From Oscillospiraceae bacterium (GTDB lineage Bacteria; Bacillota; Clostridia; Oscillospirales; CAG-382), in NCBI GenBank assembly GCA_015063785.1, contig SVTM01000004.1:38708-102707 (forward strand): 64,000 nucleotides of DNA, in the 5' to 3' direction. Numbering within the stretch: the stretch's first letter is position 1; each line of letters starts with the position of its first letter. The notes beneath the pieces are model-generated. The model was not told where the DNA came from, did no database searches, and saw only the letters and a program-made list of their open reading frames with translations. The position numbers and the translations under genes were made by a program. Of the stretch, positions 38,629-44,323 are shown in pieces.

Positions 38629-40035
38629 TCAGAATCTGAAATAGATAAAGGGATTGTAGCTTGAGCTTATGCTGAAAATGATGCACACGGCAAAGAGAAG
38701 AAGATGCACAAGGTTTGCCGCAATTGTTGCTCCTGTTCCCGAAAACTTGTCAAACCGCTTTCTTATCGGTAACATAAAGAGGATGGCGACGGGGATAAAG
38801 CATAGCTCAAAAAGCTTGTCGCTGTGGGTTGTCATTATCTGCGCGAGATTTGTGGGCACGCCGGAAAACATGGTCTTTAGCGCAAGCAAAAGCTTTGAAA
38901 AATCGGTGAGATTGAAAAGCACCCATCCGATGATGACAAAAAACATGGTGTATATCCATCCGAATATTTTGGGCAACTTTTTAAGCAGTTTGCCGAGAAG
39001 AAATTTTTCAACAAGAAGCAAAACTCCGTAGTATATACCCCAAATGATAAAATTCCATTGCGCTCCGTGCCAAAAGCCTGTCAGCGCCCAAACCGTCATG
39101 ATGTTTATGATGTGGCGCACTTTGCCCACGCGGTTTCCGCCCATGGGGATGTAGATGTAATCTCTGAACCATGTGGACAGCGAAATGTGCCATCTGCGCC
39201 AGAATTCGGTGACAGAGCAGGAAATGTACGGATGATCGAAATTTTCAAGAAAATGAAAACCGAATATTTCGCCAAGACCTATCGCCATGTCGGAATAACC
39301 CGAAAAGTCAAAGTAAAGCTGCAACGAATATGCAATAGCAGCAAGCCAATAGAATGCTGTGCCAAACACCTGCACTTCGCCGGCATACACTGTTTCGCAG
39401 ATGACGGCAACGTTGTTGGCAAGAAGTATCTTCTTTGCAAGACCTCTGATAAATCTGCGAAGTCCGTGGGCAAAGCTTTCGATATTTGTGCTTCTTTCGT
39501 GTATTTCCTCCTCCACCGTCTGATAGCGGACAATTGGGCCTGCGATAAGCTGGGGAAAAAACGAAACGTAAAGGGTGAGGTAAAAGTAGTTTTTCTGAAC
39601 CTTTACGTTTCCGAGATAAAGATCGAAAACGTAGGAGAGGATCTGAAAAGTGTAAAAACTGATACCGATAGGAAGAACGATCTGAGGTATAGTTATGTCA
39701 TGTGTCAAAAGAAGATTGACGTTGTCAATGGCAAAATTGAGATATTTGAAGATAAACAGGTTGAGCACGAGGAGCACGGTGGTTGCAACAAACACCGTAC
39801 GGCAAAGTACTTTTCTGCCTTCGTTTTTAAACTTTTCTATCAAAAGTCCGCCGATATATGCCACAAGCGAAGCCAAAAGCATGAGGGCAATTCTTTTCGG
39901 CTCGCCCCATGCATAGAAAATCAGCGAAAAAACGAGAAGAACGCTGTTTCTCCACACAAGGCTTTTGCATGGGAAATACAGAGTCAGCACCAACGGCAGG
40001 AAAAAATACAGAAAATCAAGATCACTGAAAACCAT
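38629..40035 (-). CDS. MBOAT-family O-acyltransferase (AlgI-like), second copy
   Basis: YFDFSGYSDMAIGLGEIFGFHFLENFDHPYISCSVTEFWRRWHISLSTWFRDYIYIPMGGNR. Confidence 0.94.
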   Translation of the reverse strand: MVFSDLDFLYFFLPLVLTLYFPCKSLVWRNSVLLVFSLIFYAWGEPKRIALMLLASLVAYIGGLLIEKFKNEGRKVLCRTVFVATTVLLVLNLFIFKYLNFAIDNVNLLLTHDITIPQIVLPIGISFYTFQILSYVFDLYLGNVKVQKNYFYLTLYVSFFPQLIAGPIVRYQTVEEEIHERSTNIESFAHGLRRFIRGLAKKILLANNVAVICETVYAGEVQVFGTAFYWLAAIAYSLQLYFDFSGYSDMAIGLGEIFGFHFLENFDHPYISCSVTEFWRRWHISLSTWFRDYIYIPMGGNRVGKVRHIINIMTVWALTGFWHGAQWNFIIWGIYYGVLLLVEKFLLGKLLKKLPKIFGWIYTMFFVIIGWVLFNLTDFSKLLLALKTMFSGVPTNLAQIMTTHSDKLFELCFIPVAILFMLPIRKRFDKFSGTGATIAANLVHLLLFAVCIIFSISSSYNPFIYFRF

Positions 40036-40038
40036 ATA

Positions 40039-41232
40039 TCAATACTCCGGAATAAATTCTTCGTTTATGAAAAAGTCAATGTTTCCGATAAGAAGCACCT
40101 TGTCGATCGAGTGCTGTTTGACGTATTCGGAAATGTTGAAATCTTTGCCCATATATGCGTTGTAAAAGCGCATGTCGATGGAATATGTCTTGTAAAAATG
40201 AGAGGCAAGAAGCTTGAGTATTGCATTGTCATACGACTCGCCGACAATCAGAATGCTGTCCTTTTCGGTGTTGCCCGTGTCAAAGATTATCTCGCCCATG
40301 TCGCCGCCGTAAAAATTTCCGTAGGTAACGTGGGGAAGATCGGCTTTTTTCTCAAAATATTCGCTTTGCATCCCGAAATCTTTTGTTTCTTCTCCGTTTT
40401 GTGTTATCGTCATTTCGGGGTACGAAAGCTTGTAGGCATAAAAATCCTCTTTGAAGGAGGAAACGCCGGGAGACTGGGTTTTTGAACCTGCAAAGGAACC
40501 GGAAAGCTTGATTTTTTCTCCTTTTTCGATAGCCTTTTCGTTAATTCCGAGAAGATCAAGCAGCTGAATATATCCGCGATACGAGCCTTCTTGGTTCCAG
40601 TGGTGGTCGGTGCGGTAGAAGCACTTTGAAAACTCTGCAAAATCTGATACTTCAAAGCGAGCTTCTCTTTCTGCCGGAATATTGATGTTTTCCGAAAGAT
40701 ATTCGAATATTCCCGATTTTTCCCCTGTCACAAAGTTTATGTCTGTTTCTTTTTCAACGTAGTAAAGGTAAAAATCGGTTTCGGGAAGAGCTGAAATAAT
40801 ACCGTTGAACCCCTCGATATTCACGTTGAGCATATCAACCACCCATTCAAAAACAGTGGGATTGTAGAGGATGTGGTCGTAGTTTTCGCCGTAAAGGTTC
40901 ATGTCGTCCACTTTTATGTATTCGCGCACCTCGCTCATCACAGTGCTTGACGCAGCAGACGAAACCGAAAGCTTTACAAATGCGGAATTTACTTTGTTGT
41001 AAAGCTCTTTCATATTTTCTGCAAAGAAAACCTGGTCGGAAAGAGCATCTCTTACGCCCCCCTGATAGCTTCCGTCAAGAAAAGCCGATAAAGAGAGTGT
41101 GGGCAGCTTGTTTGCCTTGCGGTTTTCAAGCTTGTTTATATCATTTGGAAAAAACGCGGTTTTTAAAAGACCGGCAGAAAGAAATATCAAAACCAGTGAA
41201 ATAAAAACGGCGTTTATGATTCTTTTTGCCAT
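40039..41232 (-). CDS. DHHW-family (AlgX/AlgJ-like) protein, second copy
   Basis: CFYRTDHHWNQEGSYRGYIQLLDLLG; N-terminal TM; 3 bp from MBOAT gene. Confidence 0.87.
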   Translation of the reverse strand: MAKRIINAVFISLVLIFLSAGLLKTAFFPNDINKLENRKANKLPTLSLSAFLDGSYQGGVRDALSDQVFFAENMKELYNKVNSAFVKLSVSSAASSTVMSEVREYIKVDDMNLYGENYDHILYNPTVFEWVVDMLNVNIEGFNGIISALPETDFYLYYVEKETDINFVTGEKSGIFEYLSENINIPAEREARFEVSDFAEFSKCFYRTDHHWNQEGSYRGYIQLLDLLGINEKAIEKGEKIKLSGSFAGSKTQSPGVSSFKEDFYAYKLSYPEMTITQNGEETKDFGMQSEYFEKKADLPHVTYGNFYGGDMGEIIFDTGNTEKDSILIVGESYDNAILKLLASHFYKTYSIDMRFYNAYMGKDFNISEYVKQHSIDKVLLIGNIDFFINEEFIPEY

Positions 41233-41317: not shown

Positions 41318-41342
41318 ATCAAGGGCAAAAAATGCCCTTGAT
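41318..41342 (-). terminator. Terminator at end of the BlaI-M56 operon
   Basis: ATCAAGGGCA-N5-TGCCCTTGAT; minus-strand T-run follows; overlaps the end region of the 41349 gene. Confidence 0.8.
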
Positions 41343-41348
41343 AAATTG

Positions 41349-42524
41349 CTATTCGGTCACAACTCCGTCTTTCGAATAGGTGACCTTCGAAAGCTTTTCG
41401 GGAAAGATTTGTCCGACATTTTCGATTTCTATCCATTCCTCGCGCGGATTTTGTACAGGCATGTTGGTCACAATCTGACCTGCATTGTACGAAAGTTCAA
41501 CGCAAGACGTGTCGATCCGCATCAGCTTGTCAAGCTTAAAACGTATTCTGATCTGCGGTATCATGCCGTGGATAAAAACGTTTCTGTCATCTTGGTAGGT
41601 CAGCCTGTTGTAATCACCCGATGCAATACTGTCGCGGATATACGAAAGCGTTTCTTCGTCTGTGTACTTTTCGGTGTAGGTGAGCTGTACGTATATCGTA
41701 TAGTCATATATACCCACAGCTTCGTCAAAAAACGATCTTCCGGGGAATAATCCGATCTTGTCGATCATAATGTTGTCAAATTTGTCGTCGGCATACTTTT
41801 TGATCTCTTTTTCAAGATAATCGTATATAGGTGGATACACCCGCATCTCGCCTTCGATAATGCCGATATCGGTTCTTGCCATATCAAACTTTTTGCCGTT
41901 TGTAAGGCAGGTGACGGTAAAGATGTTTTCGTTTCTGCTTTCTATTTTCAAGGTGTCGCCTGCGGCAACTCCAAGATCGGGCATATCGCAAAGCGCCTGA
42001 GCATAGTCGTAATCCTCGTCGCCAAAGCTGAAGTTCAGGTTTTCCGCTTTCGTGTATCCGTAAAGTCCGCCGTGGAAAGCCGGCAACGATACAAAATAGA
42101 TATCGTCACGCCCGTCAACAAGTCCGTCGGCAGGATAAACGTTGGCAAGTGTCGCCATCTCGGGTGTGGTGATGTAATCCCTGTTTTGATAAAGCATGGC
42201 TTTGTCATAATACAAGGGTGCGTGGGTGGATATGGCGGCAACAGGAACAACATATCCGTGATCGTCCCAAACATACATCAGCGTCGGTTTGTCGGAGCCG
42301 CCGATGACAACGTTTGTGTTTTCAAGATCGTCTGCTATTTTTTCTGTTGATTCTCCCGTGCAGGCAATCAGAAATTCTGCGGCAACAATGGCGGCAAGAA
42401 GTGCCACCACAAGAAATATGGCGCGTTTTTTTGATTTTGAAAGAATGTTTTCAAAACGGCTTTTGGCTTTTTTGCCGTCCTCCGAAAAAGCCGTTGAAAG
42501 ATAGGGTGTGCAAAGCTTTTTCAT
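41349..42524 (-). CDS. Stand-alone M56/BlaR1-type C-terminal 'tail' protein (copy 2, 391 aa)
   Basis: MKKLCTPYLSTAFSEDGKKAKSRFENILSKSKKRAIFLVVALLAAIVAAEFLIAC...; N-terminus matches copy 1 and the post-peptidase segment of BlaR1/MecR1-like proteins; SD GGAGG. Confidence 0.65.
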   Translation of the reverse strand: MKKLCTPYLSTAFSEDGKKAKSRFENILSKSKKRAIFLVVALLAAIVAAEFLIACTGESTEKIADDLENTNVVIGGSDKPTLMYVWDDHGYVVPVAAISTHAPLYYDKAMLYQNRDYITTPEMATLANVYPADGLVDGRDDIYFVSLPAFHGGLYGYTKAENLNFSFGDEDYDYAQALCDMPDLGVAAGDTLKIESRNENIFTVTCLTNGKKFDMARTDIGIIEGEMRVYPPIYDYLEKEIKKYADDKFDNIMIDKIGLFPGRSFFDEAVGIYDYTIYVQLTYTEKYTDEETLSYIRDSIASGDYNRLTYQDDRNVFIHGMIPQIRIRFKLDKLMRIDTSCVELSYNAGQIVTNMPVQNPREEWIEIENVGQIFPEKLSKVTYSKDGVVTE

Positions 42525-42542
42525 TTTTTACCTCCATTTCGT

Positions 42543-43058
42543 TTATCCGGCAAAGGCAAGGGCGGTGGTGCTGTATGGATCAAAGAGAGTAAGAGTTGAG
42601 TCGAGACCGTTGTAGTATTTGTATATATCTCCCGTCGCCTTTTCAACCCAAAATTCAAATATAACCGAATATTTGTAGAATCTTTCGTCTTCATCTTTCA
42701 GATCAAGGTTTGCAATGGCATATCTTAGATATTCCGCATCGTCTGTGGGGGATGGGTCTTCGTCAAGTGGGGTGTATTCTCCGTAGGTGTTTTCGTATGC
42801 CTTTGTCAGCTCATCGCAAAGGTGCTCTGCCGCTTCCTCCTGTGTCAGGCTTCTTTGCTCCTGCTCCCACAAGGGACGGGTGTCCTTTTTGGAGCAAGAT
42901 ATCAGAAACTCCGCTGAAAGCATGACGAAAACGAGAAGGACGATAAGAAAAGAAGATCTTCTTTTCTTTGCAGAAAGGATGTTTTCAAATCTGCTTTTTG
43001 CTTTTTTTCCTTCGTCGGAAAAAGCTGTGGAAAGGGTTGGGGTGTGGATCTTTTTCAT
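42543..43058 (-). CDS. Stand-alone M56/BlaR1-type C-terminal 'tail' protein (copy 1, 171 aa)
   Basis: MKKIHTPTLSTAFSDEGKKAKSRFENILSAKKRRSSFLIVLLVFVMLSAEFLISCS...; ATGA overlap with M56 gene stop; strong SD GGAGGAG inside M56 3' end. Confidence 0.7.
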   Translation of the reverse strand: MKKIHTPTLSTAFSDEGKKAKSRFENILSAKKRRSSFLIVLLVFVMLSAEFLISCSKKDTRPLWEQEQRSLTQEEAAEHLCDELTKAYENTYGEYTPLDEDPSPTDDAEYLRYAIANLDLKDEDERFYKYSVIFEFWVEKATGDIYKYYNGLDSTLTLFDPYSTTALAFAG

Positions 43059-43885
43059 GTTTGCTCCTCCTTTTTTGTGTCGTGGTACATAAAGCGTAAA
43101 AGTGTAAGTGAGTATTCTTTCTTTTCATCGGGTGTCATTTGGCCTGTCACAGTATCGTCGCAGGAATATTCAAGATCTCGGTTTGCCATTTTAACCATGA
43201 GATAGGCAAATGGGTTGAACCAGTGCATGGCGTTTGCCGCCACAAGTATCAGTTTGTACCACATATCGCCTCTTTTGGCGTGGGCGTTTTCGTGAAGCAG
43301 TATCAGCTCAAGCTCGCGTTCCGAAAGGGGCACGTCGGGTATGAGTACTCGTTTTTTGAAAAATCCTGTCATCATGGGACTTTCGATAAGTGAGCTTATG
43401 TATATGTTGTCTTTCAGATTTACCGCTCCCTTTTTTACCTTCGCGTTAAATAGCGCCAGCACGGTGATATGATAAGCGAGAAAAACGATCGCACCTGCCG
43501 ACCATACTATGGTTAAAATTTGAGAAAGTGAAATGACAACACTTTTGTCCTTTTTGACTTCACCTTTATCCAAAATCGAAAGCTCGCTGTTTTCGCTGTT
43601 TTGCGATCTGTCATTTTCGGGGAGTTGGTCGGTTTTGTCTGTGTATTCGTTGTTGGGGGTAGTTGATATTATCGGTCTTGAAAGAGCGTCGGGTTCTTCA
43701 AAAACCAGCGGCGCTGTTGTCATATCAAACCTTGCAGGCACAAGCAGCCGTAATGCCACAAGCAGCCAGGCTATGTATCTGTATTTTGCCTTGTATCTTT
43801 TTCCCAAAATGCTTGAAAAAAGCAACAGAAGCAGGATTATAAGCGACATGGTCAGCGAAATGACCGCGAGATCTACGATAATCAT
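43055..43885 (-). CDS. M56 family (BlaR1/MecR1-like) zinc metalloprotease, truncated after the peptidase domain
   Basis: SPMMTGFFKKRVLIPDVPLSERELELILLHENAHAKRGDMWYKLILVAANAMHWFNPFAYLMVKMANRDLEYSCDD; HENAH zinc motif. Confidence 0.92.
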   Translation of the reverse strand: MIIVDLAVISLTMSLIILLLLLFSSILGKRYKAKYRYIAWLLVALRLLVPARFDMTTAPLVFEEPDALSRPIISTTPNNEYTDKTDQLPENDRSQNSENSELSILDKGEVKKDKSVVISLSQILTIVWSAGAIVFLAYHITVLALFNAKVKKGAVNLKDNIYISSLIESPMMTGFFKKRVLIPDVPLSERELELILLHENAHAKRGDMWYKLILVAANAMHWFNPFAYLMVKMANRDLEYSCDDTVTGQMTPDEKKEYSLTLLRFMYHDTKKEEQT

Positions 43886-44253
43886 TTTGCCTCCTCAATG
43901 AACTTTTTCAGCTCGTCAATGTCGTCTTTTGACAGGCTTTTTCCGTCGTACAGTGAAGAAAGAAGGCTTGTAAGCGACCCGTGATGCATTCGCTTAAAGA
44001 AACTTTCGCTCTCGCTTTTCAGATAGTCGTCTTTGTCAACGGCAGGAGTGTATAGGTTTATCCTGTGCTCCTTTTTGCAGGTCAAAAAGCCTCTGTTGCA
44101 CAGCCTTGTCAAAAAATTAAGCACAGTGGTCTTTGTCCAGTCGCGATCGAGCTTTTCCATAATATCGTCGCACGAAACGGCGCCGCCTGTAACCTCTGCC
44201 ATGTCCCATATGGTCATCATGATGTCGTGTTCACATTCGGGAAGTCTGTTCAT
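43882..44253 (-). CDS. BlaI/MecI/CopY-family repressor
   Basis: LPECEHDIMMTIWDMAEVTGGAVSCDDIMEKLDRDWTKTTVLNFLTRLCNRGFLTCKKEHRINLYTPAVDKDDYL. Confidence 0.93.
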   Translation of the reverse strand: MNRLPECEHDIMMTIWDMAEVTGGAVSCDDIMEKLDRDWTKTTVLNFLTRLCNRGFLTCKKEHRINLYTPAVDKDDYLKSESESFFKRMHHGSLTSLLSSLYDGKSLSKDDIDELKKFIEEAK

Positions 44254-44269
44254 TATTGCACCTCGTTGT

Positions 44270-44323
44270 TTTACAATTGTCGAATTACAATTATATTTTA
44301 CACTTGTCGAACAACTTTGTCAA
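44270..44323 (-). promoter_or_regulatory. Promoter and candidate BlaI-type operators of the BlaI-M56 operon
   Basis: Minus TTGACA (44323-44318)-N17-TAAAAT (44300-44295); repeated tttacaattgtcgaa (44270-44284) and tttacacttgtcgaa (44297-44311), 27 bp apart. Confidence 0.65.

Follow-up and report, generated by a model that had tools for sequence, protein, structure and literature searches.

It is still a matter of debate how an extracellular signal leads to release of the BlaR1 protease within the cell. The window analysed here, a stretch of 64,000 nucleotides from an Oscillospiraceae bacterium, contains genes for a BlaI-type repressor and a short M56 peptidase, followed by two stand-alone open reading frames (tail 1 and tail 2) that resemble the remainder of a BlaR1-type receptor. 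This raises the question of whether the locus is a receptor gene broken by error or decay, or a receptor divided between one protease and several sensor subunits.

Operon layout and regulatory signals

All genes of the locus are encoded on the minus strand, in the order promoter with two BlaI-type operators, blaI, M56 protease, tail 1, tail 2 and terminator:

44295..44323, minus strand: sigma-A promoter of the operon, TTGACA-17-TAAAAT, 11 of 12 matches
44296..44310, minus strand: predicted operator copy 1, TCGACAAGTGTAAAA, overlapping the promoter spacer and -10
44269..44283, minus strand: predicted operator copy 2, TCGACAATTGTAAAA
43882..44253, minus strand: blaI-type repressor, 123 aa, Penicillinase_R (PF03965, 2.5e-25)
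43055..43885, minus strand: M56 gluzincin protease, 276 aa, Peptidase_M56 (PF05569, 1.2e-44)
42543..43058, minus strand: tail 1, 171 aa, autocleavage-type loop, alpha9, last transmembrane (TM) helix and an ectodomain without known family
42975..43058, minus strand: head of tail 1, residues 1-28, MKKIHTPTLSTA/FSDEGKKAKSRFENIL (the slash marks the predicted cut), predicted P1-P1' A12/F13; R23
41349..42524, minus strand: tail 2, 391 aa, head like that of tail 1, different ectodomain without known family
42441..42524, minus strand: head of tail 2, residues 1-28, MKKLCTPYLSTA/FSEDGKKAKSRFENIL
41318..41342, minus strand: intrinsic terminator, ATCAAGGGCA-TTTTT-TGCCCTTGAT and a T run, after tail 2 at the operon end

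As the preliminary description had stated, blaI and the M56 gene overlap by 4 nt (ATGA), the M56 frame ends soon after the peptidase domain and overlaps the next frame by ATGA (43055-43058), and each tail is preceded by a strong Shine-Dalgarno (SD) sequence (AAGGAGG for tail 1, GGAGG for tail 2); that of the M56 gene (GAGGAGG) is also strong. Tail 2 starts 18 nt beyond the end of tail 1. Judged from these signals, blaI, the M56 gene, tail 1 and tail 2 are a single predicted operon. The same layout is shared by a second species of the genus, Clostridia bacterium RGIG7446 from water buffalo colon (G003; L039, L178), in which the M56 protein is 80% identical, both window tails are retained with high similarity, and the equivalent of the operon promoter reads TTGACA-17-TAGAAT.

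The operator-like repeats TCGACAAGTGTAAAA and TCGACAATTGTAAAA lie 27 bp apart upstream of blaI, and two exact copies of the operator 15-mer were found in the whole genome, both at the window promoter. Copy 1, which is also present in the congener, fits the TACAnnTGTA-type core of BlaI/MecI operators. Binding of the repressor is predicted, and an autoregulated signalling operon is a probable part of the overall explanation favoured below. The sole further operator-like site in the genome, with one mismatch (TCGACAACTGTAACA, G000:C58:1006-1020, L168/L296; also G003:C49:7631-7645, L294), sits 26-27 nt before a gene for a large secreted protein (open frame of about 2300 aa in G003), a weak candidate for a BlaI target. 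Since the identical site of the congener lies in a promoter that is conserved throughout, this site is treated as a lead only. Downstream of the operon terminator, a pair of O-acyltransferase-type genes, MBOAT (PF03062) and DHHW (PF14286), occupies window positions 38629-41232 on the minus strand, with synteny also in the congener (L039).

The window genome contains a second split operon, located about 5-8 kb before the first base of the window (L042, G000:C47:29000-36000), consisting of blaI, a 275-aa M56 gene and two tails with FFTTKMS and FYTTKMS heads (M-type), the second tail having an M23-like domain in which HxH reads NLH. Its operator, present in two copies (TGTAGCTACA), differs from that of the window, and the two loci therefore look insulated from each other. 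A third M56 protein of this genome retains TM4 and has no tail.

The repressor and the M56 protease

The blaI product passes the PF03965 cut-off (89.5 bits vs 22.6) and scores under the NCBIfam cut-offs for true BlaI/MecI; the PF03965 match and the two operator-like repeats over its own promoter, where binding is predicted, place it in the BlaI/MecI family. The M56 half is a true member of the M56/BlaR1 peptidase family (153.1 bits vs a PF05569 cut-off of 31), and its score with the curated blaR1_generic model is 91 bits vs a cut-off of 400. It comprises three predicted TM helices and the catalytic domain, and the frame ends after helix alpha8, with a match to the PF05569 profile just to position 271 of 296. 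All catalytic residues are retained (H198, E199 and H202 of H198ENAH202, D207, E239/D243 and Y258) and are invariant in alignments A4 and A5; among the split M56 proteins of the survey, HExxH is found in 39/39 and HExxHx4D in 38/39. When the AF2 model of the M56 protein (pLDDT 86.7) was searched with Foldseek, the significant PDB matches were all S. aureus BlaR1, with E 4.5e-7 to 8exs.

Position of the cut

In S. aureus BlaR1, the loop of residues 271-289 between alpha8 and alpha9 enters the protein's own active site and is cut at Ser283/Phe284; alpha9 and alpha10 (the last TM helix) are domain-swapped in the dimer, and Asp246 of one chain forms a pair with Arg294' on alpha9 of its partner (PMC9834060). 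Work on B. licheniformis argued for an inhibitory C-terminal propeptide in the autocleavage-loop region (PMC3356374). With the site numbering of PMC9834060 applied to the tail heads, LSTA/F of the tails corresponds to L280-S-H-S283/F284 of S. aureus, and a fused Clostridia homologue (L165) can be aligned to BlaR1 (8exp) across the loop (...ILSHSFNGKKSLLKRRLINI... vs ...MLSTYFSGGKKDMKERIANI...).

The tails start 4-12 residues ahead of the predicted cleavage site. Because the window tails begin with MKKIHTPTLSTA/FSDEGKKAKSRFENIL and MKKLCTPYLSTA/FSEDGKKAKSRFENIL, the gene is split at the loop where a receptor of this type cleaves itself; in effect, the pair of genes encodes the same two fragments that BlaR1 yields on autocleavage. 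The earlier placement of the second frame at the usual post-peptidase segment holds with one refinement: the cut precedes the last TM helix instead of following it, so that the tails carry TM4 besides the sensor. The autocleavage loop with its bulky P1' residue and the alpha9 Arg294 equivalent are present in the sequence and located in the tails; protease, TM4 and sensor do not share one polypeptide, TM4 and the ectodomain being encoded by separate frames.

No Pfam family was detected in either window tail, and a PDB sequence search with the tail ectodomains returned no significant match. A penicillin-binding sensor domain was found neither in the window tails (Pfam, NCBIfam) nor in the 71 tails of the survey (Pfam). 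The single-sequence AF2 model of tail 2 has a pLDDT of 36, too low for use as a fold; just its secondary structure, with helices 15-28 and 35-56, is compatible with alpha9 and the TM helix.

Distribution and evolution of split loci

The survey of M56 loci for split tails that had been proposed for this locus was carried out with a tail-head profile, which matched in 81 of the 392 genomes of the class, some of the matches being fused M56 proteins. Reading 46 loci at the DNA level with custom HMMs yielded 36 split loci. One tail is present in 16 of them, two in 12, three in seven and four in one, such that 20/36 have 2-4 tails, these counts being lower bounds where contigs end. All tails are encoded on the M56 strand, and the gap from M56 to tail ranges from -11 to +26 nt in 32/36 loci. 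Locus L095 has one tail between blaI and M56 and two more after M56, and locus L148 (G318:C65) consists of blaI and a tail without M56, in a genome that also has a complete split locus (L147). An orphan tail whose head lacks the AFSxxG part was observed on a contig without M56 or blaI (L272, G312:C100:8089-8673). In two further split loci (L043, L090), the tails are separated from M56 by a DUF1287 (CHAP-like) gene.

In an even draw of the class with the window genome included, split M56 genes, as judged by match end and frame length, occur in 11/108 genomes (about 10%). Matches outside the class in a phylum-wide draw were mostly in long frames, and those read at the DNA level were fused, except for one orphan tail on a short contig. 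A tblastn search with tail 1 revealed no plasmid-borne relatives, and all split loci with a record title come from metagenome-assembled genomes (MAGs).

It is very improbable that errors in sequencing or assembly, or the decay of a fused gene, turned a single BlaR1-like frame into this layout with tail 2 as debris: the M56 and tail 1 frames do touch at ATGA and broken M56 loci exist elsewhere (L139, L161), but the independently assembled congener has the same 4-nt overlap and two tails, a second two-tail split locus is present in both the window genome and the congener, dozens of split loci are intact, with tails in tandem and once before M56 (L095), each tail has its own start and SD, and M56 lengths fall into distinct classes, ending past HMM position 273 by -2 to +10 in split, about +51 in TM4-only and above +80 in fused proteins. 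On the congener layout, the tandem tails and the number of intact split loci, a frame error was rejected for the family. The two broken loci are frameshifted fused M56 loci, apparently decaying receptors. The preliminary description had named a fused frame in close relatives among the findings that would refute its reading; this does not apply to the genus, in which G003, the sole congener with an ortholog, carries the split form, and fused forms are present in more distant relatives.

By parsimony, at least seven changes of the split state are needed on a tree of 111 M56 domains, at least two of them forced by starred branches, although this is a quick tree with long branches on which the exact number of split origins is unsure. 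A single split clade was rejected on this quick tree (AU test, p = 9e-11). The split may have arisen repeatedly, or re-fusion may have occurred instead. In a Peptococcaceae MAG (L183), the M56 frame continues into a degenerate remnant that resembles the loop and lacks TM4, and a sound stand-alone tail comes next; this arrangement may be a snapshot of the fused-to-split transition.

Constant heads and variable ectodomains

Among the 71 tails, which share the head pattern [LFY]-[ST]-T-x-[FM], the Arg294 equivalent is the only invariant column, and P2 Thr and P2' Ser are conserved at 90% or more. The two window tails are 86% identical in the loop and alpha9, 46% in the TM helix and 26% in the ectodomain. 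Thus, the earlier observation that tail 2 has the same N-terminus and another C-terminal part stands, whereas a single duplication does not account for it, since heads are constant and ectodomains unrelated across loci. For 41 pairs of tails from the same locus, identity is 80% in the loop and alpha9, 50% in the TM helix and 24% in the ectodomain, and the values between loci are 40%, 26% and 22%, respectively. With 24% within vs 22% between loci, ectodomains of the same array are no more alike than random ones.

At the DNA level, tails of L144, L147, L151, L153 and one pair of L129 share about 83-100% of their nucleotides over the stretch between the start codon and the end of the TM helix near nt 180, beyond which identity drops abruptly to chance; some pairs lose similarity already inside the TM helix. 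In older arrays (L132, L134, L137 and window/L039), the loop and alpha9 alone remain similar, and the TM helix and ectodomain diverge. The drop in head-DNA identity and the pattern of older arrays argue that a head cassette was joined to new ectodomains on repeated occasions and that the head is under selection; diversification of the sensor subunits by ectodomain replacement would be the best reading of these sequences. The two proposals made for this locus, one peptidase paired with two interchangeable tails and a split followed by duplication and diversification of the tail, both fit the data and are probably the same story, with the two tails predicted to share one protease.

The tails might also be alternatives that do not act simultaneously, or only one might be functional, with the likeness of heads resulting from duplication and gene conversion without a shared protease. 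The single tail in 16/36 split loci agrees with this, and near-identical head DNA could be due to recent conversion alone. It is nevertheless improbable, because the older arrays indicate selection on the head and because the congener keeps both window tails.

The ectodomains named by Pfam in the 71 tails are Cu_amine_oxidN1 (17), M23 (9), DUF4825 (4), LytR-CpsA-Psr (2) and LprI (1), and are largely envelope-related (M23, LytR-CpsA-Psr, LprI and Cu_amine_oxidN1). The H-x-G-x-D and HLHFE motifs are intact in at least three of the M23 tails, and others have lost the HxH histidine, a mixture compatible with use either as enzymes or as sensors. A lipobox-like motif follows the TM helix in 18/22 F-type tails vs 1/47 M-type tails; tails with this motif may be processed to lipoproteins, which would break the rigid link between TM helix and sensor.

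Proposed mechanism

The explanation that we consider probable is that exchangeable sensor subunits act in trans on one BlaI antirepressor protease, both completing and restraining it. A BlaR1-type receptor would be divided into a protease subunit (TM1-TM3 and the gluzincin domain) and stand-alone sensor subunits, each bringing the autocleavage/autoinhibitory loop, alpha9 with the active-site Arg, the last TM helix and its own ectodomain. By the structure-based logic of BlaR1, the head would contribute its Arg to the active site and also block that site with LSTA/F: the constant head would dock the tail onto the M56 subunit, supplying Arg294 in trans, and the LSTA/F segment would plug the M56 active site. 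A signal at the ectodomain would then shift the head, and M56 would cleave BlaI, possibly with cleavage of the head, so that the operon and possibly other genes are derepressed. Because the tails share the head but not the ectodomain, one protease could report several envelope signals, which suggests a single signalling hub read by several interchangeable sensors. The single tail of 16/36 split loci implies that multi-input sensing is not universal. We hold it slightly better than an even chance that this is a modular hub, an M56 protease completed in trans by an array of sensors, each with a constant 180-bp head and an unrelated ectodomain, which arose more than once, controls a BlaI regulon by multiple signals and shares an active-site Arg between two gene products.

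The main rival, which we regard as unlikely, casts M56 as a processing protease with the tails as its clients or effectors, namely envelope proteins such as M23 or LCP enzymes, the cytoplasmic head being a recognition tag and BlaI setting expression only. Several ectodomains are enzyme-like (the M23 and LytR-CpsA-Psr tails), with motifs kept in some M23 tails and lost in others, a likely cleavage site lies in the head, and the tails are encoded in a repressed operon. However, removal of 12 cytoplasmic residues should hardly affect an ectodomain, the head keeps the alpha9 Arg that completes the BlaR1 active site and is needless for a mere substrate, and the known logic of BlaR1 ties the head segment to control of the protease.

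Comparison with known systems

No earlier description of a split M56 protease with tandem tails was found in the open-access literature, the scope of this search. As a design found in nature, the split system could serve for fitting different sensors to one protease, and with the inhibitory loop and sensor in a separate protein, the release step of BlaR1 becomes directly testable. M56 systems of gut Clostridia appear as a large sensor family, mostly unrelated to beta-lactams.

Fused Clostridia M56 receptors with non-PBP ectodomains (L158, L162, L164 and L165) belong to the same M56 branch as the window protein, and their head segment directly follows the protease, but they consist of one frame with one sensor, and no tandem tails were found. 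TM4-only M56 proteins without a sensor (L003/L041) resemble the window protein in the BlaI neighbour and the M56 fold and differ from it in having TM4 inside the protease frame, no tail and a separate clade. This class, to which the third M56 protein of the window genome and its orthologs belong (L003, L041, L044), forms one clade of 12 rows with support 99, and in the loci read, the gene after M56 encodes a conserved multi-TM protein (about 325 aa) that belongs to no Pfam family and may be used as the sensor.

With BlaR1/MecR1-BlaI/MecI of S. aureus and Bacillus licheniformis, the window system shares a BlaI-type repressor beside an M56 gluzincin with all catalytic residues, the autocleavage-loop sequence, the alpha9 Arg, the last TM helix and an autoregulated promoter with paired operators, here predicted from sequence; by analogy, it may work like BlaR1-BlaI. 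Unlike BlaR1/MecR1, the receptor is divided at the autocleavage loop into at least two polypeptides, with several sensors per protease, and there is no beta-lactamase or PBP2a gene nearby. Since it has no penicillin-binding domain, is not one polypeptide and scores far below the curated BlaR1/BlaI cut-offs, the window system is outside the beta-lactam receptors in the strict sense.
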